Source of the DNA: Marihabitans asiaticum
GTDB lineage: Bacteria; Actinomycetota; Actinomycetes; Actinomycetales; Dermatophilaceae
DNA: 64,000 nt
NCBI RefSeq assembly: GCF_007828725.1
Contig: NZ_VIUW01000001.1
Location: forward strand, 496,001-560,000
Reading direction: 5' to 3'
Below the pieces are notes generated by a model. The model had not been told where the DNA came from. It did not search any database and worked only from the letters and a program-made list of their open reading frames with translations. Below, piece after piece: positions 10,642 to 40,616 of this stretch. The translations under genes and the position numbers were made by a program. Within the stretch, counting starts at the first letter, position 1; each line of letters opens with the position of its first letter.

Positions 10642-10644
10642 ACG

Positions 10645-14576: not shown

Positions 14577-14666
14577 CCTCTGCGGTCAGCGGCGGTCGGG
14601 GGGCGGGTCCGGTGCGCCCGCTCCGTGAGTCTTCTCGACGCTACCCCCGGGTGAGACGATGGTGGG

Positions 14667-14927: not shown

Positions 14928-14936
14928 CGCCCGCCC

Positions 14937-15025: not shown

Positions 15026-15056
15026 GGACCTGGACCGCTGTGGGAGGATGAGCCCC

Positions 15057-18432: not shown

Positions 18433-18481
18433 CCTGTCCGGACGAGCGACCGACCCGCTCTGCGCCGGCCGGGGGATCAGA

Positions 18482-18673: not shown

Positions 18674-18826
18674 GGCGAGACCCCCTCGTTACGTTAGTGC
18701 GGGACGGCAGGCAGCGCGTGAGGTGCTCACGTGCTGGTGCGGTCCCGGATCCTGGTATCTGTCGTGGGCCCCACGGTACATGGTCAACGGCCGGTACGCC
18801 CCATCCGGTCTGCCGTCCGAGACCGC

Positions 18827-20557: not shown

Positions 20558-21425
20558 GGCCGTACCTCGCCTCTGCGCGCCAGAAGATGATCAGGCCCAG
20601 CCCACCGACGCCTAGCGCCCAGGCGGTCATCACCAGCCAGTCGGTGAGCGCCAGCGGGGTGCCCTCGAGCAGCGCCTGCCGCCCCGTGGTGAGCATGAGG
20701 GCGAAGGGTTGCTTGGTGAGGACCTCCTGGATGATGACCGGTGCTCCCTGCACGTAGTGCGCGATGGGGAAGAACACCCCGGAGATGTAGCGCAGCAGCC
20801 GGACGATGACCGGCACGAGGTTGGCCAGGTCGGGGGAGGCGTTGACCAGCCGCGCGGTGATGAAGGTGAAGCCGAGCAGGGTGACCCCCTGCAGCGCTAC
20901 CGCGACGGGGAAGAGCAGCCACTTCAGCTGCGGGCTCTCACCGGTCGCGATCATGAGGACCAGGAGCAGGGCGAAGCCGGGGATCGAGGCGAGTAGCTCG
21001 GTGAGCGTCACCGACATGGGCAGGATCGCCCGGGGGAAGTGCAGGGTCCTCACCATGCTCATCCGGCCGAGGATGGCGCGCGCCCCGCGGGTGACCGCCG
21101 CCGAGGTGAAGGTGAACATCACGACGCCGATGCTGAGGAAGGCGACGAAGTTCTCGACCCCGCCGCGGGTGCGTAGCAGGAGGCCGAAGATGAGGTAGTA
21201 GCTGCCGATGAGCAGGGCCGGGTTGAGCACCGCCCAGAGCTGGCCGAGCCGGTTGGTCTCGTTCTCGGCCCGTGACTCGGCCGAGGCGAGGGTCCACAGG
21301 AAGGAGCGTCGCTCCCAGAGGTCGCGGAGGTAGCGGCCCAGCGGGGGGCGCTCGCTCAGGGCCCGTAGGCCGTGCCGGGCTGCCAGGGCCTGCGCGTCCT
21401 CGGCGCTCGTCGCGACGTCAGCCAC
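20550..21425 (-). CDS. tagG: Teichoic acid/polysaccharide ABC exporter permease
   Basis: An ABC-2 type membrane permease of about 291 residues with six hydrophobic segments in the C-terminal 230 residues. An N-terminal amphipathic stretch ends in LWERRSFLWTLASAESRAENETNRLGQLW, as in TagG/Wzm proteins. It pairs with the downstream ATPase to flip lipid-linked teichoic acid across the membrane. GTG 21425 was chosen because AGAAGGGA lies 5 bases upstream; an in-frame GTG at 21461 has no such site. It is divergent from the TagF-GT4 gene. Confidence 0.9.
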   Translation of the reverse strand: MADVATSAEDAQALAARHGLRALSERPPLGRYLRDLWERRSFLWTLASAESRAENETNRLGQLWAVLNPALLIGSYYLIFGLLLRTRGGVENFVAFLSIGVVMFTFTSAAVTRGARAILGRMSMVRTLHFPRAILPMSVTLTELLASIPGFALLLVLMIATGESPQLKWLLFPVAVALQGVTLLGFTFITARLVNASPDLANLVPVIVRLLRYISGVFFPIAHYVQGAPVIIQEVLTKQPFALMLTTGRQALLEGTPLALTDWLVMTAWALGVGGLGLIIFWRAEARYGLG

Positions 21426-21574
21426 ACTCGTCCCTTCTCGGTCGACTCCCGCGGACGCCACAGGGGGCGGGCGGGTCCAGGCCGCTCGCGACCCGCGGTG
21501 ATCATACCGACCGGGTAGCCGGCGGCCTCGCGCCTAGACTGGCGCGCCGGGAGACGGGCGGACAGGAGAAGCGC

Positions 21575-24100: not shown

Positions 24101-24912
24101 CCCAGCCTGCCCCCCGTACCAACCACCCCTCCATCGAGGAGCTGCGCGCGGTCGCCCAGCCGCCGTCGGTCGTCGGCCGGCGCAACTCGGAGCACTGGGC
24201 TGGGACCCTGTACCTGCGACGGATGTCGCTGTACTTCACCCGGATGATCCTGCCCACCGGCATCTCCGCGAACGGCGTGACCTGGCTGATGATCGTCGTC
24301 GGGGCGATCGGGGCCGCCGTCCTCATGATCCCGACCTGGTGGGCGGTGCTGGCCTGCGCGGTGCTCATGCAGGTGCAGATCCTCATCGACTGCTCCGACG
24401 GCGAGGTCGCCCGCTGGCGCGGCACGTCCTCCCCGATGGGGGTGTACCTGGACCGGGTGGGCCACTACGTCACCGAGGCCGCGCTGCCGATCGCGCTCGG
24501 GGTCCACGTCGACGGCGGGCTCGGCTCGGTCGGCGGCTGGACCACCCTCGGCGCGCTCACCGGCTGCCTCGTGCTGCTGAAGAAGTCGTTCGGGGACCTC
24601 GTCTTCGTTGCCCGCCTCTACGCGGGGCTGCCGAAGCCGCAGGAGAGCGCCGAGGTCGCCGCCTCGCGCTCTTCCGGTCTGCGCTCGGCGCGCAGCGCCC
24701 TGCGCTTCTTCCCCTTCTTCCGCGCCTTCGTGGCGATCGAGTACTCGCTCCTCACCCTCGCGGCCGCGACCCTCGACGTCGTCCTCGACGCAGCCGGCGT
24801 CACCGACGCCGGGGCGGTCCTGCGCGGGTGGGCCCTGCTCTCGTTGCCGCTCGCGCTCGCCACCGCCGGCGGGTTCCTGCTGATGATCGTGACGTCTCGA
24901 CGCTTCGAGTAG
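24097..24912 (+). CDS. CDP-alcohol phosphatidyltransferase-family membrane protein
   Basis: A 271-residue protein with about six membrane segments. The CDP-alcohol phosphotransferase motif is present as Asp98, Asp101-Gly102, Ala105-Arg106, Gly115 and Asp119, but the last Asp, usually catalytic, is His123. The family joins a CDP-linked alcohol to an acceptor alcohol, so this could make the linkage lipid or a polyol-phosphate for teichoic acid. The His change makes activity uncertain, or marks a subfamily. It is translationally coupled (GTGA overlap) to the TagF-GT4 gene, and a C-terminal remnant of a second copy survives at 35168-35299. Confidence 0.82.
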   Translation: MTQPAPRTNHPSIEELRAVAQPPSVVGRRNSEHWAGTLYLRRMSLYFTRMILPTGISANGVTWLMIVVGAIGAAVLMIPTWWAVLACAVLMQVQILIDCSDGEVARWRGTSSPMGVYLDRVGHYVTEAALPIALGVHVDGGLGSVGGWTTLGALTGCLVLLKKSFGDLVFVARLYAGLPKPQESAEVAASRSSGLRSARSALRFFPFFRAFVAIEYSLLTLAAATLDVVLDAAGVTDAGAVLRGWALLSLPLALATAGGFLLMIVTSRRFE

Positions 24913-24994
24913 ATCGTGGGCACCATGCGATGCGCTTGAATGGTTATCTCGGTACGGCCGACGCGACCATGCAGCTCTCGATGAGAGGGAGACA

Positions 24995-25378
24995 GTGAAG
25001 GCACAGGTAGTTCTGGACGCGCTCCACCTTCTGCCCGATGGGCAGATCGAGGTCGAGCTGCGGTTCGTCGCGGCCGCCGATTCGCCGCGACTCACCGACC
25101 CGGGCGTGCGCCTGGTCCCGCGTGGGTCATCCGACGAGATGCTGGTCGATGCGCGCATCCTGCGCTCATCGCCGGGAGAATGGGCCGTCGGCTGCACGAT
25201 TCCGCCTGATGCTCTGGCTGTACTCGAGAGGGGACCTGACCTGGTCGACGTCTACGCTGTGGCATCTCTCGGTGGAGAACTCCTGAGTCGTCGTCTTCGG
25301 TGGGCGGGTAGCGGGGAAAGATGGCTGCCCCAGCCCACGCCGTCGCGCAAGCTCTCATGGGCGAGGGTCTCCTCGTGA
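24995..25378 (+). CDS. Small beta-rich protein of the teichoic acid locus
   Basis: A 127-residue protein of alternating hydrophobic residues, consistent with a beta sandwich, ending in GERWLPQPTPSRKLSWARVSS-type residues. The end resembles the C-terminus of the next gene's product (GREPWLPYST). Similar beta-rich regions sit at the front of the 1152-residue TagF protein. It may bind the polymer or dock on its glycosyltransferase partner. GTG start with AGGGAGA upstream; the stop overlaps the next GTG by 4 bases. No named family was recognised. Confidence 0.6.
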   Translation: MKAQVVLDALHLLPDGQIEVELRFVAAADSPRLTDPGVRLVPRGSSDEMLVDARILRSSPGEWAVGCTIPPDALAVLERGPDLVDVYAVASLGGELLSRRLRWAGSGERWLPQPTPSRKLSWARVSS

Positions 25379-27261
25379 GAATGCGCAGGCCTCGCGTGCG
25401 CCCACGCCGCGCGGACCGCGGTCAGTCGGCCGAGCGGATCTTCATGGTGACCTGGGGAATCGCCGACGACTTCGGAGGCATGACGACGGTGTGCCTTCAG
25501 CGTGCTCGCATGTTCAGCGAGCACGCTGATGTCGTGACGCCGGTGCTCACCTTCGAGCCGATCGGCGGGTACCGAAGGACCATGGAGTCGTTGCGGAACT
25601 CTGGACACGGTTTCGACCAACTCGAGATCTGGAACGTGTACCACTACTACCGCTCCGCTGACCTCACCCCGCTCCTGGGCGCCGACGAAGTGCTAGAAGC
25701 TGCGCCGGAGGTGCCCGAGGAGTGCTCTGTAAGCGAGATCGTCGATGACGACGGCTTGCTTTTCTGCCGAGTCACCAAACTTCCGCAGTCGGACACGGTG
25801 ATCCTGCGTGAGTACGTGCGACCGGACGGGTCGACGTACCTCGTCGACCAGTCTCCGGTCGACGAGGATGGTCGCAAACTCCGCCGTACCCTGACGATGC
25901 TCACCAAGGACGGCCGCATTGCGGGGCGATGGGCCGGGGCCACAAGCCTTTACCACGAATGGCTGCGCACCCTGGCCTCGGGGGGGCCGACGGCCTTGAT
26001 CATCGACAGCATCTTCACTGCTCGGCTGCTGACGTCATTCGAGGAGCCCAACATCGTCAAGCTGGCGGTTCTGCACAATAGCCACGCCGTCCCTGGCCAG
26101 GATCCGCTCTCGGGCTCGCTTTCTCCACGCCAGCGACCCGTATCAGCCAACACCTCTGCTTGGGATGCCGTGGTCTTCCTCACCGATGGGCAACGGGACG
26201 ACTTCGTGCGCGCCTTCGGTGGCTCCGACAACATGTACGCCATCTCGAACGCGCGCCAGAGAGTTAGTCCCGAACCGGCTTTCGACGGTCGCAGTCGCAC
26301 CAACGGTGCGATGGCATGCTCGCTCTCCGAGCGGAAGAACGTCGAGGCGGCGATCCGGATCATCCATCGAGCATCGGCGACGGTGCCAGACGTGCACTTG
26401 GATGTCTACGGTGGAGGCCCGGAGGAGCAGCGGCTCCGAGACCTCATCGACGAGCTCGGTGCCCATGACCATGTCACCCTTCGTGGTCCAACTCCCCAGG
26501 CTTCTCGTGCGTTCGAGTCCGCAGCCTTCTCTCTTCTCACCAGCAGGAAAGAGGGGCAGCCGCTGGTCCTGATGGAGAGTCTGGGCCGTGGATGCCCCCC
26601 CGTCGCGTTCGACATCAGGTATGGCCCGAGCTCGCTCATCACGGACGGAGAGAACGGTTTCCTCGTTCAGGAGGGGGACCATGCAGCCGCAGCCGAGAGG
26701 ATCGTCCAGATCTGCACGGACGAGGCGCTGGCGCGACGCCTCGGGCAGGCTGCGTGGCAAGGGAGCAACGCGTTCGCGGAGCGAGCGGTCCTTGATCGGT
26801 GGCTGGCTGCGATCGCGGAGTGCTTCACACGCAAGAACGCTCGCCTGGTCGTCAGGGACCTGACGTTCGACATCACGAGGACAACTTTGTGGGGGTCCGG
26901 AGCGGTCGAGGTACTCGGAGATATCACGTGGACTCAGTCATGCGGGCCACCCGCTGTGGAGCTGATCGAGCCATATCTCGCAGTGCGTCGGCGCGCTGTC
27001 GGACCGCCGACCTTCCTCCCTGTGAAGGTGCGCGAGCGTCGGCCCGGCCGCCTGTCGGTCGTCATCGCGTTTGCACCCGATGACTGCGCCCCCACGAGTG
27101 GGCCGACGGGCAAGTTCCTGGACCTCTCGGTCGGTGTCCGCGCGAACAACCTGCGTCAAGAGATCCGGGTGAGCTTCGGCGCTGGTCGGGAACCCTGGCT
27201 GCCGTACTCGACCGCGCACGGATCGGTGAGTATCCAACGTCGACTTCGTGCACCTGCCTGA
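25375..27261 (+). CDS. TagE/TarM-like GT4 glycosyltransferase
   Basis: About 628 residues. The N-terminal region has the DUF1975-like start of TarM/TagE enzymes (RIFMVTWGIADDFGGMT) and a beta-rich insertion with YLVDQSPVDEDG. The C-terminal GT-B half carries SERKNVEAAIRI, VYGGGPEEQRL and SRKEGQPLVLMESLGRG, the EX7E-type donor site. A last beta-rich domain of about 130 residues follows. Relatives add GlcNAc or glucose to poly(polyol phosphate) teichoic acid. The start overlaps the preceding small gene. Base composition is visibly less GC-rich than the surrounding core genes, hinting at transfer. Confidence 0.82.
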   Translation: MRMRRPRVRPRRADRGQSAERIFMVTWGIADDFGGMTTVCLQRARMFSEHADVVTPVLTFEPIGGYRRTMESLRNSGHGFDQLEIWNVYHYYRSADLTPLLGADEVLEAAPEVPEECSVSEIVDDDGLLFCRVTKLPQSDTVILREYVRPDGSTYLVDQSPVDEDGRKLRRTLTMLTKDGRIAGRWAGATSLYHEWLRTLASGGPTALIIDSIFTARLLTSFEEPNIVKLAVLHNSHAVPGQDPLSGSLSPRQRPVSANTSAWDAVVFLTDGQRDDFVRAFGGSDNMYAISNARQRVSPEPAFDGRSRTNGAMACSLSERKNVEAAIRIIHRASATVPDVHLDVYGGGPEEQRLRDLIDELGAHDHVTLRGPTPQASRAFESAAFSLLTSRKEGQPLVLMESLGRGCPPVAFDIRYGPSSLITDGENGFLVQEGDHAAAAERIVQICTDEALARRLGQAAWQGSNAFAERAVLDRWLAAIAECFTRKNARLVVRDLTFDITRTTLWGSGAVEVLGDITWTQSCGPPAVELIEPYLAVRRRAVGPPTFLPVKVRERRPGRLSVVIAFAPDDCAPTSGPTGKFLDLSVGVRANNLRQEIRVSFGAGREPWLPYSTAHGSVSIQRRLRAPA

Positions 27262-27320: not shown

Positions 27321-29516
27321 GTGCGATTATCATCGGCTATGGGCGCGACGCGGGATGCTGTCGGCGCCAGAGTCGATCACATCGAGGCGTGGCCCGGCTT
27401 TCACCCCCTGGAGGACCCGATCTCAACAAGTTCTGAGAGCGCCCGGCCCGCCGACCCCCCACGATCTTCAGAAACCCCGTCTTCTCGGGGGTTTCGGCGC
27501 GACATTCAGGGTTTGCGGGCCGTGGCGGTCTCGCTGGTGGTGGTGTTCCACATCTGGCCACAGGTGTTGGCGGGCGGGTATGTGGGGGTCGATGTCTTCT
27601 TCGTGATCTCGGGGTTCTTGATCACGTCGCATCTATTGTCGCGGCCGCCGAAGGGGGTCGGTGATCTGGGCGTGTTCTGGGCGCGGCGGGTGCATCGGCT
27701 GCTCCCCGCTGCGTTGACGGTGCTGGCGGTGACGGTCGTGGCGACCCGGCTGTTGGCGCCGAGTACGCAGTGGGCGGGGACGGCGAAGGAGATCATCGCG
27801 TCGGCGTTCTACGTGCAGAACTGGGTGCTGGCGTCGTCCTCGGTGGACTATCTGGCCGAGGGGGAGGCGCCTAGCCCGGTCCAACATTACTGGTCGCTCT
27901 CGATCGAGGAGCAGTTCTACCTGATCTGGCCGATTCTGATCTTGGCTGTCTTTGTCGTCGCTGGGCGGTGTCGCTGGCGTGCGGCAAGTGTCGCGCGGGT
28001 GGTCATCGGTGGGATGGTCGCTCTCTCGTTGGGGGTCTCGGTCTGGCAGACGACGGTCTCGCCGGCGAGTGCGTACTTCATCACTCCGACCCGGATGTGG
28101 GAGCTGGCGGTCGGTGGTCTGGTTGCGACGGTGGGGAGCATGTCGGGCTCGCCGCGTCTGAGGGCCTTGGCGGTGCCGGTGGCGTGGGTGGGTCTGGGGG
28201 CGGTGGTCATCGCCGGGGTGACCTACTCCGGTGATACGCCGTTCCCTGGATACACCGCGTTGCTACCGGTCCTGGGTACGGCGGCGGTGATCTGGGCCGG
28301 GACGCAGTCCGCGGCATCGCCGACCGGGGTGCTGCAGGCCCGGCCGGTGCAGTGGCTCGGTGATGTGTCGTACTCGGTGTACCTGTGGCACTGGCCGCTG
28401 GTGGTGCTGCTGCCGTATGCCAGCGGTGGCAGTCTGGGGGTCCTGGATCAGGTGGTGATCGTCGTGACCACCCTGGTCCTGGCAGGGTTGACCAAGACCT
28501 ACGTCGAGGACCGCTACCGTCATCCGCGGCCTGGGGCGCGTCTGCGCCGCAGCTACGCAGCCGCGGCGGCCGGGATGGCAGTCATCGCCGCTGTGGGGAC
28601 CGTGCAGATCGCCGAGTCCACCTACCGCACGGATCAGGCGGAAGGTGAGCTGGCGAGCGCGCTGGGGAGTGCGGATCCCTGCCTCGGCGCCGGTGCGCTG
28701 CGTGAGGGACAGGGCCAATGCACGATCGATCCGGGCGCGACGCTTGTCCCCTCTGTCGACCTGGCAGCCGAAGACAAGTCGGATGCTTACGCCGACGGCT
28801 GCTGGACCAATCAGCCGTTCACCGATCGCGCCACGTGCACCTACGGAGACGGCCCCACCCGGATCGCCCTCGTCGGAAATTCCCACGCCGGGCACTGGCT
28901 ACCCGCGCTGCAGATCATCGCCGAGAAGAACGACTGGGCCATCACCACGTTTCTCGTGTCGCGGTGTGCGGTGACTGATGCCCGGCAGCGGTTCGACACC
29001 GAGCAGATGACCCAGAACTGCTACGACTACGGGCAGTGGGTCCAGGAGCAGACCTCTGGGGACACCTTCGACCTCGTCATCACCTCGGAACGACAGTCCG
29101 TGCCGGTGCTCGGGACCACCATGGCGACCACCGGCCCGAAGGCCGTCACCGGGTACACCAGCTATCTGCGCGACTGGGCCGCCGGAGGCACGAAGATCCT
29201 CGCGATCAAGGACCCGACCTTCCCCGGCATCGACGTCCCCGAATGCCTCGCCGAGAACCCGGGCGACCACAGTCGATGTTCGGCTCCGCGCTCGGAGTGG
29301 ATCATCGACGATCCGCTGATGGCAGCCGTCGAGATGGTGGACCTGCCGACAGTCACCTCGGTGAGCTTCGACGACTTCGTTTGCGGGCCGACCACCTGCG
29401 ACGGGGCGATCGGTGGCGTCGTCGCCTACTTCGACAGCTCCCACCTCACGGCCACCTATGTGGCGACGATGGCGCCATTCATGGAGCAGCCGATCCTCGC
29501 GGCTCTCGAGGGCTGA
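27321..29516 (+). CDS. OatA-like acyltransferase 3 with SGNH domain
   Basis: About 731 residues. An acyltransferase_3 membrane domain begins at RRDIQGLRAVAVSLVVVFH (about residue 57) and includes YVGVDVFFVISGFLIT and SLSIEEQFYLIWP, with about 10 membrane segments. A C-terminal SGNH esterase-like domain starts near residue 500, with the Ser motif VGNSHAGHW at about 517 and a late DSSHLTATY His. Such enzymes acetylate peptidoglycan, teichoic acid or sugars. The N-terminal 55 residues are low-complexity and contain a terminator-like hairpin in the DNA, so the true start is unsure. The 3' end overlaps the convergent gene by 38 bp. Confidence 0.86.
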   Translation: MRLSSAMGATRDAVGARVDHIEAWPGFHPLEDPISTSSESARPADPPRSSETPSSRGFRRDIQGLRAVAVSLVVVFHIWPQVLAGGYVGVDVFFVISGFLITSHLLSRPPKGVGDLGVFWARRVHRLLPAALTVLAVTVVATRLLAPSTQWAGTAKEIIASAFYVQNWVLASSSVDYLAEGEAPSPVQHYWSLSIEEQFYLIWPILILAVFVVAGRCRWRAASVARVVIGGMVALSLGVSVWQTTVSPASAYFITPTRMWELAVGGLVATVGSMSGSPRLRALAVPVAWVGLGAVVIAGVTYSGDTPFPGYTALLPVLGTAAVIWAGTQSAASPTGVLQARPVQWLGDVSYSVYLWHWPLVVLLPYASGGSLGVLDQVVIVVTTLVLAGLTKTYVEDRYRHPRPGARLRRSYAAAAAGMAVIAAVGTVQIAESTYRTDQAEGELASALGSADPCLGAGALREGQGQCTIDPGATLVPSVDLAAEDKSDAYADGCWTNQPFTDRATCTYGDGPTRIALVGNSHAGHWLPALQIIAEKNDWAITTFLVSRCAVTDARQRFDTEQMTQNCYDYGQWVQEQTSGDTFDLVITSERQSVPVLGTTMATTGPKAVTGYTSYLRDWAAGGTKILAIKDPTFPGIDVPECLAENPGDHSRCSAPRSEWIIDDPLMAAVEMVDLPTVTSVSFDDFVCGPTTCDGAIGGVVAYFDSSHLTATYVATMAPFMEQPILAALEG
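27471..27495. terminator. Terminator-like hairpin inside the acyltransferase 5' region
   Basis: GAAACCCCG (27471-27479) pairs with CGGGGGTTTC (27486-27495) with a single bulge. The form AAACCCCG-loop-CGGGGTTT is typical of intrinsic terminators, but here it lies within the predicted coding frame just before the conserved domain. It may mark a recombination joint. Confidence 0.35.
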
Positions 29517-32500
29517 CCTCCCCTTCGCCTCCCCCCAGGACGGCATCGACGACACGAGCGGCAGCGTGGCCATCGTCGTGGGGCGCGTAGGTCGCGAGGA
29601 ACTCCTCGATGGTCGGGTCAGCCGACGAGCTTCTGGCCAGCGCCGTGGACAGAGCGGCGACCAGCTCGTCGTCGGTCTGGGTGACCGGCCCGGGCACGGC
29701 TGCCTCGTAGTCCAGGTAGAAGCCGCGTAGGTCGTCTCGATATGAGTCGAGGTCGTAGGCGTGGAAGATCATCGGTCGGCGGAGCAGCGCGTAGTCGAAG
29801 AACACCGAGGAGTAGTCCGTGACGAGGACGTCGCTCACGAGGTAGAGCTCCTGGATGTCTGGGTAGCGCGAGGCGTCGACGACCCGACCAGCCAGGTGCT
29901 CGGGGATCTGCAGCCGGTTTGCGATGAGGACATGCATCCTCAGCAGGAGGACGACGTCGTCAGGGAGGGCTGCGACGACCCTCTCGAGGTCGAACGGAAG
30001 GTCGAAGGAGAACCCGCGTCCGCCCTTCGCGTCATCGCGGAAGGTCGGTGCGTAGAGGACTGCTCGGGTGCCCTCGGCCAGCTGAAGGCGCTGGCGCACG
30101 GTCTCCCGTGTCGCCTCGCTGTGCGGGGCGACCAGGATGTCGTTGCGCGGATAGCCCAGCTCAAGAACCTCGCCCTCGTAGCGGAACGCGGACCGGAAGG
30201 CCCGCGTCGCGTACGGGCTCGGCGACAGCAGCGCCGTCCACTGTGAGATCGCCTGATCGACCCGCTCCACGTAGCCCTCGTCACGGCCGACGACCTCGTC
30301 GAGGTCGTGAAGCATCCGCTTGAGCGGCGTGCCGTGCCAGGTCTGGAGGTAGACGCCGTCCCGTCGGCGGCGCACGTAGTGCGGGAAGTTCTGGTTGGTG
30401 ACCCAGTACCGGGAGCGCCCGAGATGCCAGAAGTAGGCAGGAGAGAGTCGCTTGACGACGACGAGCTCGGGGTCCCAGACCGGGACGGCCCTCTCGTAGA
30501 CCCAGACCTTCGTCCTCGGGTCGCCGCGGCGGACGAGCTCCTCGTAGATCGCGCGCGGGCTGTCGCTGTACTGCTTCCCGATGCCGCTCTCGAAGAGGAC
30601 CGCGTCGCGGGCTGGGAGCAGCCGGGCTAGGGCAAGGAGTCGGCGCATCGCGGGGAAGTACCAGCGATGACGTCGCGCTCTGCGGATCAGGAGCGCTCCG
30701 AGCTCGCTGCCGGTCACGAGCTCACGTATGGAGCGCTCACGTCGCGCGCTCGTGATCGCGGCGACGACCCTCTCGTTGTTGCCGAGGTCGCGGTGGGTGA
30801 GGAAGCGCTGCGCCCGGGTGCGGTAGCGCGGTTCGATCGTCGCGCCGCGCTCCAGGGTTCGCTCGAGCTCGTCAAGGGCGGCGTCGAGGTCGTGCGAGAT
30901 GGGGCCTGGCAGCTCGGTGGCGAGATCGAGGTGGCTGCCCCAGCGCCCGAGGAAGGGGCGTACGTCGAACTGGAAGTAGATGACCGGCTTGTCGAGGAAG
31001 GAGAAGTCGAAGCCAGGGCTGGAGTAGTCGGTGACGAGCACCGCGCTCTCCTTGAGCAGATGCTGCACGTCGACCTCACCCTGCTGGACGACCCGCACTC
31101 CCGCAACGTCGAAGTAATCCCTGAACTGCTGCATGTTGGGATGCAGGCAGAGCACGACATGCGCATCGTGGTCGCGCAGCATCTCCGCGAGCCGCGGGCT
31201 GGTCAGGAATGCCAGCCACTGCTGGAAGTAGTCGGTCTCGGTGAAGGTGTCGGGGTCCTGCAGCCAGTCCCGCCAGGTGGGCAGGACGAGGATCTGACCC
31301 GGCACGGCTGGCGTCTTCCCGTCGAGCAGGGTGTCGAAGCGGGAGAGGCCGGTGACCGCGACCTCATCGGGGCGGTAGCCGAAGTCCTGGACGATGTACT
31401 CCGCCTCCCGCTCGGAGGAGACGAGGAAGAGGTCGGTGTGGAAGGACGACACCCGTTTGCCGTAGTTCAGCGCCATCCACTTGGTCCCCATGACCCCGTG
31501 CTGGAGGAAGATCGCCGGCGCCTTCATCCGTCGTGCGAATCGGCGGGACCGGGTGGGGTAGAGGAAGTCGGGATGGTGGGTGCTGGCGAGCCGGTCGGCG
31601 CGGAAGATGACGTCGATGTGCTCGGGCGAGCGGCGGTCCAGCACGTGGTCGAGCCCGGCGAGGTTGGCGCGCTCTGGGGAGTCGTGGTCGATGACGTAGT
31701 AGGCGTCGATCTCGGGGTGGTGCTCGCGAAGGTGCCGGAAGAGGTGCAGCCCGTTGTCCTGGGCCTTCGACGGTCGCTCACCGATCAGCCACACCGGCTT
31801 GCCGCCAGGGCGACGGGGCAAAGTCAGTGCCGGCCGTTGCAGCCGGGCGTGCAGTGCGCGGTAGGCCTCGGTGCCGAAGAGCTCGAGGTGGAGCGAGGGG
31901 TACTTCGCCTTGAAGGTGTAGTAGGGCGTGACTGCGAGCGTGCGTCCGCCGACGCTTGCCGCCCCGTCGTTCGTGGCAAGACGCACGAGGTAGGGGGTGC
32001 GACCGACCCGACCCGTGACGGCTGCCCCGTCGACTGTTGTGGCCTCGATGCGCAGGTCAGCGATGGTGTCGGCGGTGAGCCGGCCCTCGAGGTCCTGCCG
32101 GAAGTCGTGGCGCGCACGCCAGGTGTACGCCCGCGATCCGTTCGCACGCAGCGAGCCGAGCGGGTCGAGGGCGACAGTTGCCGGACTCGACGAGCGGTAT
32201 CCACCGGTGCGTCCGACGAGGGTGAGCCGGACCTGATCGAGCTCCGCGCCCGAGGAGACGATCGTGCCGCTCACCTCGAGATGACCCTCGACGATCCGCA
32301 GGCGAGTGACATCGACCCGCATGCTCTGGCGCACGTCGGTATCGATCGCGAGGGAGAGGTGGCCGTTGCGGTTGACGTACGGCGTGACATCGTGCCCCAT
32401 CGGGGTGTGGACAGGGGCGAAGGTCGGAGGAGGGGTGCGCCGGAACCGGCCCAGCGGCACCCGGTACTCCAGCGTGCCCTCTCCCTCGACGATCTCGGTG

Positions 32501-32937
32501 GCGAAGCGTGGGGCGCGCTCCCGGTCCTCGCGGACCGAGGTCCACACGCTGGTGCGGGCGCCCGTCTCCGCGGCAGGTGTGGCCTCGGGGTCCGCCGTGG
32601 TCGGAGCGTCCACCGTGGGCTCCTCGGCCCGCGCAAGGTCCAGCCGGTCCACGACATGCAGGTCGACGACCGCATGGTGGAACAGCACGGCATCCCCGGC
32701 CACGACGTGCTCGGTGGTCTCCCAGGTGCCGGCCGGCTGCCACTCGTCGGCGACGAGCAGCCACAGCGTCTCCAGGTGCAGACCTGGGCCGGTCCATGCG
32801 CCCACGGTGATCTTGCTCCCCTCCTGCACCATGTCGAGCCGGAGCCGGGAGTAGGGGCCGACCTCCGGCGGCTGGGCAGCGCGCCGGTCACGACGGGCGC
32901 GCAGTGCGCGCTGGGCGAGGAGCGGGAGGGAAGGCAT
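29479..32937 (-). CDS. Double-domain CDP-glycerol glycerophosphotransferase
   Basis: An 1152-residue protein. Residues 1-370 are beta-rich (VTPYVNRNGHLSLAI; VTPYYTFKAKYPSLHLEL), like accessory domains of actinobacterial teichoic enzymes. Two TagF-type units follow. The first (about 380-720) has LQHGVMG near 480 and VTDYSSPGFD near 636. The second (about 770-1130) has TWHGTPLKRM near 866 and VTDYSSVFFD near 1040. Each contains a His in the HG motif and the TDYSS donor site. A two-unit enzyme could make an alternating or two-step polyol-phosphate chain. It ends inside the acyltransferase gene (38-bp overlap) and starts 4 bp after the Stealth gene. Confidence 0.84.
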   Translation of the reverse strand: MPSLPLLAQRALRARRDRRAAQPPEVGPYSRLRLDMVQEGSKITVGAWTGPGLHLETLWLLVADEWQPAGTWETTEHVVAGDAVLFHHAVVDLHVVDRLDLARAEEPTVDAPTTADPEATPAAETGARTSVWTSVREDRERAPRFATEIVEGEGTLEYRVPLGRFRRTPPPTFAPVHTPMGHDVTPYVNRNGHLSLAIDTDVRQSMRVDVTRLRIVEGHLEVSGTIVSSGAELDQVRLTLVGRTGGYRSSSPATVALDPLGSLRANGSRAYTWRARHDFRQDLEGRLTADTIADLRIEATTVDGAAVTGRVGRTPYLVRLATNDGAASVGGRTLAVTPYYTFKAKYPSLHLELFGTEAYRALHARLQRPALTLPRRPGGKPVWLIGERPSKAQDNGLHLFRHLREHHPEIDAYYVIDHDSPERANLAGLDHVLDRRSPEHIDVIFRADRLASTHHPDFLYPTRSRRFARRMKAPAIFLQHGVMGTKWMALNYGKRVSSFHTDLFLVSSEREAEYIVQDFGYRPDEVAVTGLSRFDTLLDGKTPAVPGQILVLPTWRDWLQDPDTFTETDYFQQWLAFLTSPRLAEMLRDHDAHVVLCLHPNMQQFRDYFDVAGVRVVQQGEVDVQHLLKESAVLVTDYSSPGFDFSFLDKPVIYFQFDVRPFLGRWGSHLDLATELPGPISHDLDAALDELERTLERGATIEPRYRTRAQRFLTHRDLGNNERVVAAITSARRERSIRELVTGSELGALLIRRARRHRWYFPAMRRLLALARLLPARDAVLFESGIGKQYSDSPRAIYEELVRRGDPRTKVWVYERAVPVWDPELVVVKRLSPAYFWHLGRSRYWVTNQNFPHYVRRRRDGVYLQTWHGTPLKRMLHDLDEVVGRDEGYVERVDQAISQWTALLSPSPYATRAFRSAFRYEGEVLELGYPRNDILVAPHSEATRETVRQRLQLAEGTRAVLYAPTFRDDAKGGRGFSFDLPFDLERVVAALPDDVVLLLRMHVLIANRLQIPEHLAGRVVDASRYPDIQELYLVSDVLVTDYSSVFFDYALLRRPMIFHAYDLDSYRDDLRGFYLDYEAAVPGPVTQTDDELVAALSTALARSSSADPTIEEFLATYAPHDDGHAAARVVDAVLGGGEGEVSPREPRGSAAP

Positions 32938-32940: not shown

Positions 32941-34566
32941 TCATCCGTCCGTGTCGGGAGAGGGGTCCGGGATCTCGAAGGGGGAGGGGCACGGCAGCAA
33001 CGCTTCCAACACCCCGCGTAGGCGCTTGGCCGCGACCTCGGGGTCGGTGTCGGTGGTCTCGTTGAGGCAGAAGGAGTCGAGGTCGGCGCGGACGAGCATG
33101 CGCTCGATCCGGGCGTCGACGCCCGGATCGCCGATGTCGATGAACTCGTAGGTAGTGTCGGAGGGGACGGCCCTGCCGGTCGCATCCGCCCACCATGCCT
33201 GGAGCTGGGAGGCCAGAGAGATGTCGGTGGGCGAACGGAACCGGGCCCGGCTCGTGCGGCGAACCGCGTCGGGGCAGGCCGCCTCGATGTCTTCGAGCAC
33301 ATCACGCCGCTGAGGGTGCGGCGTGTGCCGCGGGCGCGTCGTCGGCCTCCTGCCGAGATGCTCGTCGAGCAGTGCGCGGCCGTTCTTCATGGCCTGGACG
33401 ACCGGCAGGTCGTCGGCGCGAGCCGGGCCGTCGTCGACCGGGACGTGCGATGGGAACCACCGCACGAGCCCGCTCCCGGTGAAGAAGTGCTCCGGTCGTA
33501 GCGGTCGGGCGAGGAAGACGTCGTCGTTGAGATAGAGGTAGTGCTGGGCGAGACCGGGGACTCGGTGCAGGTTGGCCTCGATCGCGTGCGAGCTGAAGGT
33601 CGGCAGGTCAGCGGTGTCGGCGAAGATCTCGTCGTGCCGGACGACCCGGACCTTCGGGTGGTCGGTGTCGAGCCACCCCGGCACCTGGCCGTTGGTGACG
33701 ATGTGGATGGTGCGCACCCAGCTCGCATAGGCGGCGATCGAGCGAAGGGAGTAGCGCAGCTCGTCGCGGTTCGTCCAGCGCGCCGTGGACCAGGCGCTGG
33801 CGTGCCCGGCTGAGGTGTCGGTGCCCGCGCGGGCCGCGGCGTAGTCCTCCTGCCAGGCAGGGTCGGCGGAGTCCACCCAGGTGTAGACGACGTCGATCGG
33901 GAAGTCGACCTGCTCGAGCGGTGTGCCGGTGGGCGGGTCGAGCGAGGCTGCGAGGGTGCCCGGGGGGATGGAGCGGACGAAGGGGTTTGGCCGGGGCGCG
34001 ACCAGGGTGCCGGTGGGTCGCTCGGGGCCGTCGGGGGACGCCTGCGTTGCGGCCAGCTCGGTCCAGACTTCTACGTCCACGCCGAGCGAGCGGGTCGGGA
34101 GCATGCGGCCCGCGGGAGAGACCTGTGGTGACCAGACCCGCACGACCGAGCCGGCGCGTAGCGCGGGGAGCGAGCGAGCCGGGCGCGACGGTCCGAGCCG
34201 GCCGCTGGCATGGAGCCCGGTGTGGAGGTGAAGGTCGGGGTCGATGTCGTTGAGCGCGACCAGGATGGACTGAGTCGCTTCGGCGTCGGAGGATGAGACG
34301 ACCACACGGTGCGGTTCCGCGCCGAGGGCGGGCAGCACCCGATGCTCGATACCGGCGCGGGTCAGTGCCTCGACCGTGACATCCCGGCAGCGATCTCGTA
34401 GGGCCCACGCGTCGAAGGTGTCGACAAGGACAGCCGTGAGCAAGGAGCGCCCTCGGCGCACGGAGACGGTCCCCCCGGGGGCCAGCCCTTGGATGTCGAT
34501 CGGCCTGGTGCCGTCGCGCAGCGCCCGCGCGTGCAGCCGGGCGCGGGCACTCAGGACGCTGAGCAC
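32941..34566 (-). CDS. Stealth-family sugar-phosphate transferase
   Basis: A 541-residue protein. The last 330 residues match the Stealth family, which transfers hexose-1-phosphate in capsule synthesis: IDVVYTWVDS (conserved region 1, about 222), RDELRYSLRSI with HIVTNGQVPGWL (region 2), and HTPHP (region 3). The NDDVFL metal-binding motif is present. The first 210 residues are a separate region with no family recognised. It begins at a GTG and lies 4 bp upstream of the double TagF gene on the same strand, so both are likely one transcription unit. Confidence 0.88.
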   Translation of the reverse strand: MLSVLSARARLHARALRDGTRPIDIQGLAPGGTVSVRRGRSLLTAVLVDTFDAWALRDRCRDVTVEALTRAGIEHRVLPALGAEPHRVVVSSSDAEATQSILVALNDIDPDLHLHTGLHASGRLGPSRPARSLPALRAGSVVRVWSPQVSPAGRMLPTRSLGVDVEVWTELAATQASPDGPERPTGTLVAPRPNPFVRSIPPGTLAASLDPPTGTPLEQVDFPIDVVYTWVDSADPAWQEDYAAARAGTDTSAGHASAWSTARWTNRDELRYSLRSIAAYASWVRTIHIVTNGQVPGWLDTDHPKVRVVRHDEIFADTADLPTFSSHAIEANLHRVPGLAQHYLYLNDDVFLARPLRPEHFFTGSGLVRWFPSHVPVDDGPARADDLPVVQAMKNGRALLDEHLGRRPTTRPRHTPHPQRRDVLEDIEAACPDAVRRTSRARFRSPTDISLASQLQAWWADATGRAVPSDTTYEFIDIGDPGVDARIERMLVRADLDSFCLNETTDTDPEVAAKRLRGVLEALLPCPSPFEIPDPSPDTDG

Positions 34567-34630
34567 AGGTCGAGGCCGCGCGCCGGGCGCGGCGGAACGG
34601 TGCTGGTCGTCATGAGAGCCGATCCTGTCA

Positions 34631-34797
34631 GATGACCGGCGGCTGCCCGAGCCGCGCCAGCCGGAGCACGGTGCGCCACAGCATCGGCCGACGACCGCCA
34701 GGGTCGGTCGTCAGTCCCTCATGAAGTCCGCGCAGCCACAGTCTCAGCTCCTGCGGTCGTTGCCAGGTGCGCAGCACCATGAGGGCGGTCCTGGCGC
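34631..34797 (-). pseudogene. 3' fragment of a GT2 glycosyltransferase
   Basis: The minus-strand reading gives an LRTWQRPQELRLWLRGL..GLTTDPGGRRPM segment ending in RLGQPPVI and a stop. It matches the last 50 residues of the glycosyltransferase at 38800-39678 almost residue for residue (LRTWRRPADLRLW; TTDPGGRRPM; RLGQPPII). The rest of the gene is missing. The break at about 34797 abuts a fragment on the other strand. Confidence 0.75.
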
Positions 34798-35174
34798 GGC
34801 TGATCCGCGCGTCCGGGACCCCACGGGCGACGGGTGCCCAGCTTCGCCGTCGTCGTCGTGGGCGACGGGCCGCTGGTCGCCGAGCTGGCCGAGCTGGTCG
34901 ATCGGCTCGGGCTGAGCGGGGCGGTGCACCTCACCGGTCGCCTGGACACCCCTTTCCGGTGCTCACGACGGCATTCTCGTCGGTCGAGGGCGTGGTCCCT
35001 CCCGGGTGCGGGCTCGTCGTCGAGCAGGACGACGATGCCGTCGCCCGTGCGATGATGCAGGTCATCTCGGACCGGCCTCGATTCGGCACCTTCGACGTCG
35101 CCGCGTACAACGCGGCGGCTCTGGCCGAGCTCGCCGAGGCGACCGACCTCGCCGGCGTGTCGGGGCGGTGCTGA
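34791..35174 (+). pseudogene. C-terminal fragment of a TagF-GT4 fusion gene
   Basis: The translated pieces RLIRASGTPRATG, then (after a frameshift) PSFAVVVVGDGPLVAELAEL to HLTGRLDTPF, then (after a further deletion and shift) LTTAFSSVEGVVPPG to FGTFDVAAYNAAALAELAEA. They line up with residues about 690-830 of the protein encoded at 21575-24100. About 35 residues containing the EX7E donor motif are deleted, so it cannot be functional. The two are much closer to each other than to the GT4 part encoded at 35429. Confidence 0.8.
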
Positions 35175-35299
35175 GGGGCCTCGGGGTGCTCGAGCCCGGA
35201 ACGGTCCTTTCGTGGTGGCTCGCGGCCGCGCTGCCGCTGGCGCTGGCCACCGCCTGCGGCTTCTTGGCGATGATCGTGACCTCGAGCCGGTTCGAGTAG
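35168..35299 (+). pseudogene. C-terminal fragment of a CDP-alcohol transferase gene
   Basis: The frame AVLRGLGVLEPG to LPLALATACGFLAMIVTSSRFE ends in TAG at 35297-35299. It matches the last helix of the protein encoded at 24097-24912 (LPLALATAGGFLLMIVTSRRFE). It directly follows the TagF-GT4 fragment, in the same order as the intact pair at 21575-24912. Confidence 0.8.
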
Positions 35300-35428
35300 T
35301 TCGGTGCGGCGAGGTCGCGCAGGCGGCGCGCTGGTGGTATCGAGGGTTCCTGAGCACCGGCATAATTGCCCGTCGACCGTGGCCAGGGCGCCTCTAGCGA
35401 GGTGTCGTGATGGAGGAGGTTGTGCCGC

Positions 35429-38029
35429 ATGCGCGTATCGGACGCAGTGAAGTCGCTCAAGCGAGCCCGCCGAGTCGGCTCCCAAGAGTGGCGAGCTCAC
35501 TGGCGCGAGCGTCCGGTCGAGCGCGACACCGTCTTCTACGAGTCGTTCGCGGGCAACGGGATGCTCTGCAACCCCGAGGCCATCTTCCGCGAACTCCTGG
35601 ACGATCCGGACTTCGCTCACCTCGAGCACGTCTGGTGCCTGTCGCCGGCGATGTGGGAGTCGGGGGTGCGCCGCGAGTTCGACGGCCACCCGCGGGTGCG
35701 TTTCGTGCGGTACAAGTCGCCCCAGTACTTCCGCGCCCTGGCGACGTCGCGGTACCTCTTCAACAACGCCACCTTCCCGCCGGAGTTCGCCAAGCGGGAC
35801 GAGCAGGTGTACGTCAACACCTGGCACGGAACCCCGTTCAAGCAGATGGGGTACGACGAGCCCGGCGGCGGCCCCGGGGCACGCAACGTCATCCGGAACT
35901 TCCTCTCCGCCGACTATCTGCTCGCCGCGAATGATTTCATGGCCGAGCAGATGTACGAGGACGCCTACCGGCTGACCAACATCGCGACCGGGCAGATCGT
36001 CACCGAGGGCTCGCCCAGGGTCGACCGGCAGTTCCTCGACGAGTCGGCTCGTGCTCGGGTCCGCCGTCGCCTTGAGCGGGCCGGTGTTGCGCTGCAGGCG
36101 GACCAGAAGGTGATCCTCTACGCCCCCACCTGGCGGGGGGAGTCCTTCCAGAAGCCGTCGAACGACGTCGTGCTGCTCGCTCAACGCGTCAGGGAGCTCA
36201 AGCGGCAACTGCCCGAGGGACACCAGGTGCTCCTGCGGGTGCACCAGCAGGTCTACACCTTCGCGCTGCAGCACCCGGAGCTGGCCGACATCCTCATCCC
36301 CGACGAGATACCCAGCAACGAGGTGCTCGGTATCACCGACGTCCTGGTGACGGACTACTCGAGCATCTTCTTCGACTTCCTCGCGACGGGCCGCCCGGTG
36401 GTGTTCTTCACCCCGGATCTGCGCTCTTACGACGACTACCGCGGCTTGTACCTCGACCCGGGTGAGCTGCCCGGTCCGGTCGTCGGCACCGTCGGCGAGC
36501 TCGCGCGAGTCCTGGTGGCAGAGGGATCGGGTGAAGGGGACGACCCCCGTGTCACCCACCGGGACGCCTACGCCTCTGCCCGTGAGCGCTTCGCATCCCG
36601 AGAGGACGGCGGAGCCACGCAGCGGGTCATCGACGTGGTCCTGCGCGGCAGGCGAGACGATCGTGACGTCCGCGATGTCCGCTCGGACGGGCGCACCCGC
36701 CTGCTGCTCTACCTCGGTGGGATGCGGCCCAACGGGATCACGACCTCCGCGCTGAGCCTGCTCAACAACATCGATCACGACCGTTTCGACGTCTCGGTGC
36801 TCTACCAGTACTCCAGCTCCGCGGAGGTCCGCGCGACGGAGGCGAAGGTCCACCCGCGGGTACGGGTCCTGCCGCGCATCGGAGGGATGCTCTGGTCGTT
36901 GCGCGCGGGGAAGGAGCGGGGGCAGGCGCTGCACGGAGGGGAACGGTCCGGCGAGGAGACCCCGGAGCGGGTCCGTCACCAGTTCGCTCACGAGTGGCGG
37001 CGCTGCTTCGGTCTAGCCGAGTTCGACCACATCGTCGACTTCAGCGGCTACGCCGCGTTCTGGGCACTGCTGCTGCAGGCGGGGCCGGCCTCGAGCCACT
37101 CGATCTGGCTGCACAACGACCTCAAGGCCGATCAGATGCGCGAGGTCGACGGCCACCGCCCGCACGAGGCGAACCTGGGTTCGGTCTTCCGGACGTACCG
37201 CGACTTCGACCACCTGGTGTCCGTCTCAGAAGTGCTCATGGAGATCAACCGGGAGAACCTGGCGGACATGGCGCCCCCGGAGCGTCACACCTTCGCGCGG
37301 AACACGATCGACGCGGGCTACATCACGCGGAACGCCCCCGGGGACCACTCGACGGTCGCGCCCGTGACCGATGACGCGGACGTCTCGGTCCCGGCGCGGG
37401 ACCTGCCAGCAGCGGTGCGCGCCCTCGGTGACCTGCACGGCGCGCAGGCACTGGAAGGCGAAGTCGAGCGGTATCGCACGATCAGCGAGGTGATCCCTCC
37501 CGCCCCCGGGGTCCGCACCTTCGTGACCGTGGGAAGGCTATCGCCGGAGAAGAACCACGAGCGGCTTGTCCGAGCCTTCGACCTGGTCCACCAGGTGGAT
37601 CCCGCGACGCGACTGGTGATCATCGGGGGAGGCCCGCTCGAGGCCCGGCTGCGCGACGTCGTGCTCGACCTGGGTCTGGGTGACGCGGTCACGGTCGCCG
37701 GCCAGCGCAGCAACCCGCACGTGGTGCTCGCCAAGGCCGACACCTTCGTCCTGTCCAGCGACTACGAGGGCCAGCCCATGGTGATCCTCGAGGCGCGTGT
37801 CCTAGGGCTGCCGGTCGTCTCGACGAGGTTCGCCTCGGCCGCCGGGGCGCTGCCTGATGGGGTCGGGCTCGTGGTCGACCGCGACGAGGCCGCCCTCGCC
37901 GACGGGATGCTAGCTGCGCTGCGGGGAGAGGTGCCGAACCCTGCGTTCGACGCGGCGGAGTACAACCTCGAGGCGACGCAGGACTTCTACCGCGTTCTCA
38001 GCCCCGGGAGCGCGGCAGCCACGAGCTGA
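35429..38029 (+). CDS. CDP-glycerol glycerophosphotransferase / GT4 glycosyltransferase fusion (second copy)
   Basis: About 866 residues with the same architecture as the protein encoded at 21575: a TagF-type N-terminal half (VYVNTWHGTPFKQMGYDEPGG; DVLVTDYSSIFFDF) and a GT-B family 4 C-terminal half (VTVGRLSPEKNHERLV; GGGPLEARL; SSDYEGQPMVILEARVLGLPV). The ATG at 35429 was chosen because GGAGGAGGT ends 8 bases before it. The two fusion enzymes differ widely in the GT4 half, so they may add different sugars. The 3' end overlaps the convergent sulfotransferase gene by 32 bp. Confidence 0.88.
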   Translation: MRVSDAVKSLKRARRVGSQEWRAHWRERPVERDTVFYESFAGNGMLCNPEAIFRELLDDPDFAHLEHVWCLSPAMWESGVRREFDGHPRVRFVRYKSPQYFRALATSRYLFNNATFPPEFAKRDEQVYVNTWHGTPFKQMGYDEPGGGPGARNVIRNFLSADYLLAANDFMAEQMYEDAYRLTNIATGQIVTEGSPRVDRQFLDESARARVRRRLERAGVALQADQKVILYAPTWRGESFQKPSNDVVLLAQRVRELKRQLPEGHQVLLRVHQQVYTFALQHPELADILIPDEIPSNEVLGITDVLVTDYSSIFFDFLATGRPVVFFTPDLRSYDDYRGLYLDPGELPGPVVGTVGELARVLVAEGSGEGDDPRVTHRDAYASARERFASREDGGATQRVIDVVLRGRRDDRDVRDVRSDGRTRLLLYLGGMRPNGITTSALSLLNNIDHDRFDVSVLYQYSSSAEVRATEAKVHPRVRVLPRIGGMLWSLRAGKERGQALHGGERSGEETPERVRHQFAHEWRRCFGLAEFDHIVDFSGYAAFWALLLQAGPASSHSIWLHNDLKADQMREVDGHRPHEANLGSVFRTYRDFDHLVSVSEVLMEINRENLADMAPPERHTFARNTIDAGYITRNAPGDHSTVAPVTDDADVSVPARDLPAAVRALGDLHGAQALEGEVERYRTISEVIPPAPGVRTFVTVGRLSPEKNHERLVRAFDLVHQVDPATRLVIIGGGPLEARLRDVVLDLGLGDAVTVAGQRSNPHVVLAKADTFVLSSDYEGQPMVILEARVLGLPVVSTRFASAAGALPDGVGLVVDRDEAALADGMLAALRGEVPNPAFDAAEYNLEATQDFYRVLSPGSAAATS

Positions 38030-38799: not shown

Positions 38800-39678
38800 T
38801 CAGATGATCGGAGGCTGGCCGAGACGGGCCAGGCGCAGCACGGTTCGCCACCGCATCGGCCGGCGGCCACCGGGGTCGGTGGTCAGCCCTTCGCGCAACC
38901 CGTTCAGCCAGAGGCGCAGGTCGGCAGGACGCCGCCACGTGCGCAGGATCATCAGCACGGTCCAGGCGCAGACGTAGACCACTGCGACGGGCCACGGCAG
39001 GTTGCGGCGGGCGACCCACACGCGGTTGCGGGCGTTGAGCCGGAAGAAGACGTCATGCCGATCGGGTGACGTCGCTGGGTGGTAGATGTGCAGCGACGGG
39101 TCGTAGACCAGCTCCCAGCCCCGGTCCCGCATCCGCCAGGCCAGCTCCACCCCTTCGTTGCCGAAGAAGAACGAGCCCGGGAACCCGCCCGCGTCCTGGT
39201 AGGCCGCGCGACGGATCAGCACCACTCCTTCGCAGACCGCAAAGGCGGGACCGCCGACAGCCGGGTCGCCGACCCGCGCCCGGGGCACCCAGCGCCGCTC
39301 GGTCACCCCGCTCGGGTCCGAGACCCGGGCGTGGATCAGGCCGAGGCCGGGCTCGGCGCGGAATCGGGCGACCGCGCGCTCCAGTGCGTCGGCATCGCGC
39401 AGCCAGGCGTCGTTGTCGAGGAAGAGGATGAACTCGCCCGAGCCACGGGCGGCGGCGATGTTGCGACCCTCGGGCGGGCCGACGTTCTCCCGGACGTACA
39501 TGGTCTGCACGTCCGCGTCGAAGCCCTCCGGCTGCCAGCCGTTGCCGAGCAGGATGAGCGTGGTCTGGACCCCGGTCTGGACCCTGGCCGACTCGAGAGC
39601 CCGGCGCGTCTCTGCCTGGCGGTCGCCCTGGCTGAGCACGACGACGTCGACCGTTGGGGTCGCGTCCTGCTCCGGCAT
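38800..39678 (-). CDS. GT2 family glycosyltransferase (rhamnosyl/galactofuranosyl type)
   Basis: A 292-residue GT-A protein: VDVVVLSQGDR start, ENVGPPEGRNIAAARGSGEFILFLDNDAWL with the metal-binding DND, FFGNEGVELAWRMRDRGWEL acceptor-side motif, then a C-terminal membrane-proximal helix. It resembles rhamnosyl- and galactofuranosyl-type transferases. The ATG at 39678 is preceded by GGAGAGG. A truncated copy of its 3' end lies at 34631-34797 and a related enzyme at 44721-45629. Confidence 0.85.
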   Translation of the reverse strand: MPEQDATPTVDVVVLSQGDRQAETRRALESARVQTGVQTTLILLGNGWQPEGFDADVQTMYVRENVGPPEGRNIAAARGSGEFILFLDNDAWLRDADALERAVARFRAEPGLGLIHARVSDPSGVTERRWVPRARVGDPAVGGPAFAVCEGVVLIRRAAYQDAGGFPGSFFFGNEGVELAWRMRDRGWELVYDPSLHIYHPATSPDRHDVFFRLNARNRVWVARRNLPWPVAVVYVCAWTVLMILRTWRRPADLRLWLNGLREGLTTDPGGRRPMRWRTVLRLARLGQPPII

Positions 39679-39822
39679 CGGCCTCTCCTTGGTCTGGCTG
39701 AACCTGACCCTACGACGAAGAGAAGGTGAACGCCGCACGGACTGTTGGTGAACGCCCAGCGCGCGGAGACCTAGACTCGGGTGCGTCAATCCCCCACCTG
39801 ACGCGCGAGGTTGCATCTCCTA

Positions 39823-40284: not shown

Positions 40285-40348
40285 CGGAATCCGCCTGGTC
40301 GCTAGGCCCGAGCCGGCGCGGTCGCGCGCAAGGCGAAGGGGGAGAAGG

Positions 40349-40422
40349 TGGCCAGGGGCGGGGTCGAACCGCCGACCTTCCGATTTTCAGTCGGACGCTC
40401 GTACCAACTGAGCTACCTGGCC
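40349..40422 (-). tRNA. tRNA-Phe (GAA)
   Basis: On the minus strand a full cloverleaf with a 7-bp acceptor stem GGCCAGG/CCTGGCC, discriminator A, anticodon loop CTGAAAA giving GAA, and a GGTTCGA T-loop. CCA is not encoded. It is the first of three clustered tRNAs. Confidence 0.95.
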
Positions 40423-40447
40423 GAGTCACGTCTGCTGACGTGACGAG

Positions 40448-40521
40448 CGACCCTGACGGGACTCGAACCCGCGACCTCCGCCGTGACAGGGCGGCGCGCT
40501 AACCAACTGCGCTACAGGGCC
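40448..40521 (-). tRNA. tRNA-Asp (GTC)
   Basis: Acceptor stem GGCCCTG with CAGGGTC (one G-U pair), discriminator G typical of tRNA-Asp, anticodon loop CTGTCAC giving GTC, T-loop GGTTCGA. It sits 25 bp from tRNA-Phe, so they are probably one transcript. Confidence 0.95.
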
Positions 40522-40543
40522 TTGTGGTGCAAGGCTTCTTGCG

Positions 40544-40616
40544 TATCCCCAACGGGATTCGAACCCGTGCTACCGCCGTGAAAGGGCGGGGTCCTAGGCC
40601 GCTAGACGATGGGGAC
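40544..40616 (-). tRNA. tRNA-Glu (TTC)
   Basis: Acceptor stem GTCCCCA with TGGGGAT (terminal G-U pair), anticodon loop CTTTCAC giving TTC, T-loop GGTTCGA. It is first in transcription order in the Glu-Asp-Phe cluster. Confidence 0.95.

Follow-up and report, generated by a model that had tools for sequence, protein, structure and literature searches.

In Bacillus subtilis, homologous recombination at a fixed site swaps entire wall teichoic acid cassettes or parts of them (PMC8753576). In 24 clade VI strains, a second tagF survives only as its C-terminal part alongside another tagF, and the authors offer, as one possibility, that the remnant devolved because of this other tagF. In Vibrio cholerae, T6SS loci gain modules, perhaps by homology-facilitated illegitimate recombination, and repeated events stack the modules (PMC5361080). 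Staphylococcus aureus carries two copies of the tarIJL teichoic acid genes in one genome (PMC1458327).

Here we describe a surface-polymer locus of Marihabitans asiaticum that resembles each of these systems in some respects. As in B. subtilis, cassette exchange at a fixed site is combined with a C-terminal remnant of a redundant tagF; unlike that case, which concerns one subspecies and one gene, the locus holds remnants of three shared genes, keeps two different cassettes and belongs to an actinobacterium (PMC8753576). The likeness to the Vibrio loci would lie in a module that homology anchors at one end and illegitimate joining attaches at the other, with old genes shifted and pieces left behind. 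The differences are the function of the genes, the single seam, and a mechanism that rests on short shared sequence (PMC5361080). The S. aureus copies have the same genes in the same order with high similarity, and no alternative cassettes are joined there (PMC1458327). This kind of event is already documented in Bacillus teichoic acid loci (PMC8753576) and has been proposed for other genes in Vibrio (PMC5361080). It is less usual that the remnant marks the seam of two different toolkits, both surviving, and we found no description of such a remnant-marked seam for these bacteria in the open-licence literature.

The window, the whole 64,000-nucleotide stretch of DNA analysed, contains the locus between ABC-transporter genes on the left and a tRNA-Phe/Asp/Glu trio on the right. 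From left to right the genes are TagF_A, CDPAT, GT4, acyltransferase-SGNH, TarS(-), Stealth(-), a scar of gene fragments, TagF_B(+), sulfotransferase(-), GT2(-) and a cytidylyltransferase-like gene(+) (Table 1). Three window proteins contain the PF04464 domain, and PF01467 is also present, as are the ABC genes, which may encode the exporter. The cytidylyltransferase-like gene is presumably of the TagD type, which would fit a CDP-glycerol route. The Stealth and sulfotransferase genes leave room for a sugar-phosphate or sulfated polymer as a possible product instead of wall teichoic acid. The cytidylyltransferase gene is divergent from GT2 and adjoins the tRNA trio. A minus-strand gene in the gap 39817-40346 was rejected due to an internal stop: the real gene is on the plus strand, and the minus-strand ORF at 39820-40224 is not that gene. 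Elsewhere in the window, a PIN_8-domain protein (53006-54253, plus strand) lies in the kilobase of lowest G+C (0.60).

Table 1. Features of the surface-polymer locus, of the scar within it, and of the second composite locus (last row).
Feature	Position	Strand	Description	Basis
TagF_A	21272..24100 (start may be 21575)	+	intact glycerophosphotransferase (PF04464) + GT4; shared core gene	Pfam; orthologues in relatives
CDPAT	24097..24912	+	intact CDP-alcohol phosphatidyltransferase; shared core gene	Pfam
GT4 glycosyltransferase	25321..27261	+	type I cassette	Pfam; present in G088 and G091, not in G001
Acyltransferase-3/SGNH	27321..29516	+	type I cassette	Pfam; 79% to G001, 62% to G088
TarS (TarS_C1-glycerophosphotransferase protein)	29479..32937	-	type I cassette	Pfam; with G001 in unrooted tree
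Stealth-family protein	32941..34566	-	type I cassette; left edge of scar	Pfam; with G001 in unrooted tree
GT2'	34628..34797	-	3' end of second GT2, 5' side cut off	76% to 38800-38969, E 9e-30
TagF_A'	34790..35149	+	C-terminal (GT4) part of second TagF_A; 91-bp deletion and frameshift	
Breakpoint	34790..34797	.	GT2' and TagF_A' matches overlap; intact proxies share 7 bases, CCAGGCG	
CDPAT'	35150..35299	+	last 44-50 codons of second CDP-alcohol transferase; stop retained; left edge approximate	
Motif GGCATAATTGCCCGTCG	35359..35375	+	17 bases before TagF_B; candidate promoter element	
TagF_B glycerophosphotransferase-GT4	35429..38029	+	type II cassette; open	Pfam
Sulfotransferase PF03567	37998..38870	-	type II cassette; open; overlap of ORF with GT2 end, start possibly lower	Pfam
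GT2	38800..39816	-	intact; shared core gene	Pfam
Cytidylyltransferase-like gene PF01467	39811..40284	+	shared right-hand core gene; candidate homologous anchor	Pfam
tRNA-Phe, tRNA-Asp, tRNA-Glu	40347..40616	-	conserved right flank	same trio in G080, G083, G084, G085, G088, G093, G001
G084 composite (L062+L063, reversed)	TarS 18036-21401, Stealth 21540-23099, TagF_B 23383-25959			

Nucleotide alignment against the intact window copies resolved the scar (34628-35299) into three truncated genes, GT2', TagF_A' and CDPAT'. Identities are 76-81% with E-values of 4e-15 to 1e-41, far above chance, and a chance origin of the similarity is thereby rejected. GT2' has the orientation of the intact GT2 and retains its stop codon. 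TagF_A' aligns in two blocks, 34790-34972 with 23605-23787 (78%, E 1e-35) and 34956-35149 with 23861-24054 (78%, E 1e-41); 91 alignment columns are absent compared with all nine intact orthologues aligned, and the frame changes. CDPAT' matches 24842-24916 over 35229-35303 (81%, E 4e-15), and at the protein level residues 228-271 of CDPAT match 35165-35296 at 61%. The first-pass annotation had recognized, from the letters of the window, a minus-strand GT2 3' end, a TagF-GT4 C-terminal fragment with a frameshift and a deletion, and the end of a CDP-alcohol transferase following it. All three identifications hold, as do the coordinates given for them, and the homology at the nucleotide level is established for each fragment. 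Its statement that the fragments are nearer to TagF_A than to the adjacent TagF_B was also right: the similarity to TagF_B is 69% over 90 bp only, and an origin of the scar from that gene was rejected.

A DNA scan of the genome with the scar returned two short matches outside the window (28 and 35 bases); as it did not recover the GT2 match known at 38800, the scan was not exhaustive. Protein scans of the genome gave no further GT2 or CDPAT copy beyond those of the window, and no third TagF gene of this kind, the TagF_B query returning only the two TagF genes of the window at E <= 1e-40. We also scanned 15 gaps in the window for gene remnants. The scar gave 47 matches, six other gaps gave some and eight gave none. 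Three of the six are intact genes overlapping the chosen gap, one is the antisense of the cytidylyltransferase gene, one contains short repetitive matches, and one reflects an ABC gene and the start of TagF_A. No transposase or integrase Pfam domain was found at the junction among the locus proteins scanned, and a transposon or integron origin of the scar was rejected on this basis.

Nine loci were compared: that of the window, that of its congener G001, and those of seven genomes from the Janibacter genus group, a different genus within the family. Three of the seven, G083, G088 and G091, coincide in place and score with records of Janibacter corallicola, J. limosus and Janibacter sp. Soil728, respectively. 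In the eight loci that reach both sides, ABC genes lie to the left and the cytidylyltransferase gene, the tRNA trio and PHP/DUF445 lie to the right. All seven other loci that extend to the cytidylyltransferase gene carry it at 88-93% identity. Between these conserved flanks occur two middle gene sets, of which relatives mostly carry one. Type I consists of TagF_A-CDPAT, further genes, and TarS(-)-Stealth(-)-GT2(-), and is found in G001 and G088; type II, in G093, G085 and G080, reads TagF_A-CDPAT-TagF_B-sulfotransferase(-)-GT2(-). Only five of the nine loci are cleanly of one type, as G084 is composite, G083 is partial and the right end of G091 is cut by a contig end, so that its type is not assignable there. 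The partial G083 locus has Stealth-GT2, TarS was not found in the stretch read, and its TagF_B-sulfotransferase pair is located elsewhere. The locus thus has the features of an allelic polymer-cassette site, putatively of the teichoic-acid type, in that different gene sets occupy the same conserved place in the chromosome.

Several further arrangements were seen in the relatives. The CDPAT gene is present in seven of 16 Janibacter-group genomes and missing from the other nine. In G083 (L090, contig C72, 2667-5881), the TagF_B-sulfotransferase pair adjoins an orthologue of the window gene at 14586-16691, and in G084 (L062+L063 reversed, 5808-6428) a sulfotransferase alone adjoins the same orthologue, so that these genes have changed place within the neighbourhood. 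G083 (L029) also has three consecutive Stealth-family genes in both orientations at 9517-14393. In G001 (L026+L027), two acyltransferase-SGNH genes (10766-12844 and 16316-18391) lie on either side of TagF_A-CDPAT, and GT4 had no match in the 40 kb read.

The window reads type I and then type II. In G001, G083 and G088, type I natively terminates on its right with Stealth followed by the 3' end of GT2, and the same order stands on the left side of the scar. To the right, the end of CDPAT, 129 bp and TagF_B form the native interior of type II. The corresponding gaps in relatives measure 131-138 bp as delimited in this analysis, and a single alignment of 35204-35496 with G093 runs from the end of CDPAT through the intergenic part into TagF_B (66%, E 2e-10). 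The motif GGCATAATTGCCCGTCG is identical before TagF_B in G093 and G085 and has near forms in G080 and G084; the window contains one exact occurrence and one with three mismatches, compared with an average of 0.15 in shuffles. Each flank of the scar is thus shown to be a native junction. The second copies of the shared genes are all broken (3/3), and the cassette-specific genes (GT4, acyltransferase, TarS, Stealth, TagF_B and sulfotransferase) are all open (6/6). Since the two sides are native junctions of different cassettes, the haplotypes appear to have been stacked, with only the redundant shared genes eroded. We consider it probable, at roughly 0.7, that the scar is the seam of two alternative surface-polymer cassettes, type I followed by type II.

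The first-pass annotation had proposed that a single teichoic-acid cassette existed twice and that one copy was replaced or lost. That the fragments are remains of a second TagF_A-CDPAT pair and of a second GT2 is borne out. A duplicated cassette of which one copy was replaced or lost is not supported, as the scar appears to be the boundary of two cassettes with different middle genes, both sets still open. It was the comparison of locus structure in related genomes, with its two alternative cassettes mostly carried singly, that changed the reading. Recombination at a surface-polymer locus as the underlying cause, also part of the original claim, is supported.

Spelled out in full, the first-pass version is a duplication within the lineage, in which a TagF_A-CDPAT-GT2 cassette was duplicated, both copies long remained functional, one was later replaced or lost, and the middle genes were swapped separately. 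In trees, the fragments are sister to the intact copies of the window (99.2/100 for the TagF and CDPAT blocks, 360 sites; 90.4/93 for GT2, 165 sites; for TagF_A the aligned-block tree is the one used), as such a duplication would predict. Branch lengths are 0.185 for the fragment and 0.115 for the window's own copy in the TagF and CDPAT blocks, and 0.217 and 0.231, respectively, in the GT2 block. However, identity between the fragments and the intact copies is 78.5% over 525 sites, not far above that between the intact copies and other species (72.4% to G001, 75.0% to G083). A tandem duplication would show the same gene content in both copies, and the left and right sets differ in their middle genes, so that an extra replacement of these genes is required. 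Each side of the scar is also a native junction, and the two cassettes to which these junctions belong differ and occur one at a time in relatives. We consider such a duplication improbable.

The pattern of divergence bears on when the fragments lost function. Differences between fragments and intact copies fall at codon positions 1/2/3 as 24/19/70 over the 525 sites. The third-position share of 0.62 is within the range for 27 intact pairs (mean 0.573, range 0.53-0.63), in a pool from which G091, lacking a GT2 block, and a single pair showing 26 differences were omitted. The share under a neutral fragment branch, 0.453, is rejected (P 3e-4). NG86 estimates, the only ones used, give dN/dS of 0.24 for all blocks between fragments and own copies, with 0.37 for TagF, 0.15 for GT2 and 0.12 for CDPAT; one CDPAT pair gave no dS. 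The divergence is thus of the coding type, and because the third-position excess is like that between intact orthologues, most of it preceded inactivation, with at most modest later decay. A divergence of 21.5%, with 62% of the differences at third positions, argues against in-place decay of a duplicate. Judged from these substitutions, the pattern is what two haplotypes that diverged in close relatives would show; an old duplicate within the lineage would show it too, had it been functional until recently.

Recombination between repeated TagF_A or GT2 genes in an ancestral composite locus would give exactly types II and I, which raises the idea that the composite came first and that deletions between its repeated core genes produced the single types. 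However, in the trees the fragments pair with the window's own copies and not with those of other species, and in the relatives the three Stealth-GT2 and three CDPAT-TagF_B gaps gave protein matches only to the adjoining reading frames. An ancestral composite is very unlikely. Even less credible is a sequencing or assembly artefact, for which the only point is that the genome is in six contigs: at 19-24% divergence from the intact copies, the fragments are not misjoined reads of them, each flank is a native junction, and contamination is listed as 0.68.

For the seam of two cassettes, we propose that recombination linked two haplotypes head to tail, one of type I (TagF_A-CDPAT-GT4-acyltransferase-TarS-Stealth-GT2) and one of type II (TagF_A-CDPAT-TagF_B-sulfotransferase-GT2), which had diverged yet came from related lineages. 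Incoming type II DNA would have paired by homology at the right, either in GT2 or in the conserved cytidylyltransferase gene and tRNAs; with 88-93% identity over eight loci, the cytidylyltransferase gene would be a good site for homologous pairing. At the left, a short shared sequence inside the resident GT2 may have served to join that gene to the middle of the incoming TagF_A, which would truncate GT2 and TagF_A simultaneously. If a junction in these genes is placed at random, a shared run of at least seven bases arises with P 0.0013 (200,000 draws); the match was noticed after the fact and on proxies. Later deletions would have removed the 91 bp of TagF_A' as well as the TagF_A'-CDPAT' boundary. 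The strain would have retained the type-specific genes of both haplotypes, with the second copies of the shared genes free to decay. A ComEC-family gene (PF03772) is present, and the family also matches 10 of 14 control genomes, so it says little on DNA uptake.

A two-step variant of the same explanation begins with a large tandem merodiploid that contains both loci with their flanks, followed by one deletion from GT2' into TagF_A'. The final gene order would be the same, and the 7-base match at the breakpoint suits a deletion as well as a joining. Against this, the second set of flanking tRNAs and ABC genes would have to be lost without trace: a single tRNA trio was found in the window, and at E below 1e-3 nothing in the scar matched the ABC genes at the nucleotide level. 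The two-step variant is somewhat unlikely. The picture fits homology-facilitated illegitimate recombination (PMC3240628, PMC5361080), and it fits later deletion in a merodiploid equally well.

Within the stacked arrangement, type II is the likelier newcomer. TagF_B orthologues (72-78% identity) occur in five of the 16 genomes of the Janibacter group. The two congeners compared have none, the best match there being TagF_A (45% in G001), and sulfotransferase gave no match at E <= 1e-10 in these two genomes. The window TagF_B and sulfotransferase are 63-78% identical to their Janibacter-group counterparts, and in unrooted trees the window TarS and Stealth join G001. With type II genes absent from two congeners and TarS and Stealth grouping with one of them, the gene distribution and trees point to type II as the later arrival. 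The donor would have to be an unsampled near relative, as the fragments are not especially close to TagF_A or GT2 of the type II genomes sampled, nor does the window's intact GT2 group with type II GT2s in the tree (the 112-aa GT2 row of G080 was left out of GT2 identities and tree placement). When distant outgroups are included, the window TagF_B falls weakly inside the Janibacter group (90/75), and the window sulfotransferase falls outside it (77.6/73).

The composite locus of G084 has TarS-Stealth followed directly by TagF_B, with no detectable remnant between them. About 1.3 kb between TagF_B and GT2 in this genome has no gene assigned to it. Its TarS joins that of G088 (100/100, four rows) and its TagF_B joins that of G080 (99.6/96), groupings which suggest that this composite arose apart from that of the window, and the two are apparently separate in origin. 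Tentatively, cassettes in this family could be added and not only swapped, by repeated stacking at the Stealth/TagF_B boundary (with a scar in the window and without a detectable one in G084), leaving both toolkits in a strain and the shared core back at one copy.

In the window, the cell would keep the specific toolkits of both types alongside a single core set; the strain may build or decorate its polymer with both gene sets. Odd gene fragments thereby become a readable record of cassette addition rather than replacement, and the seam offers a way to find such events in other genomes. If stacking recurs, a single step would be enough for a bacterium to gain another surface polymer or decoration, with possible effects on phage susceptibility and on the diversity of cell surfaces.
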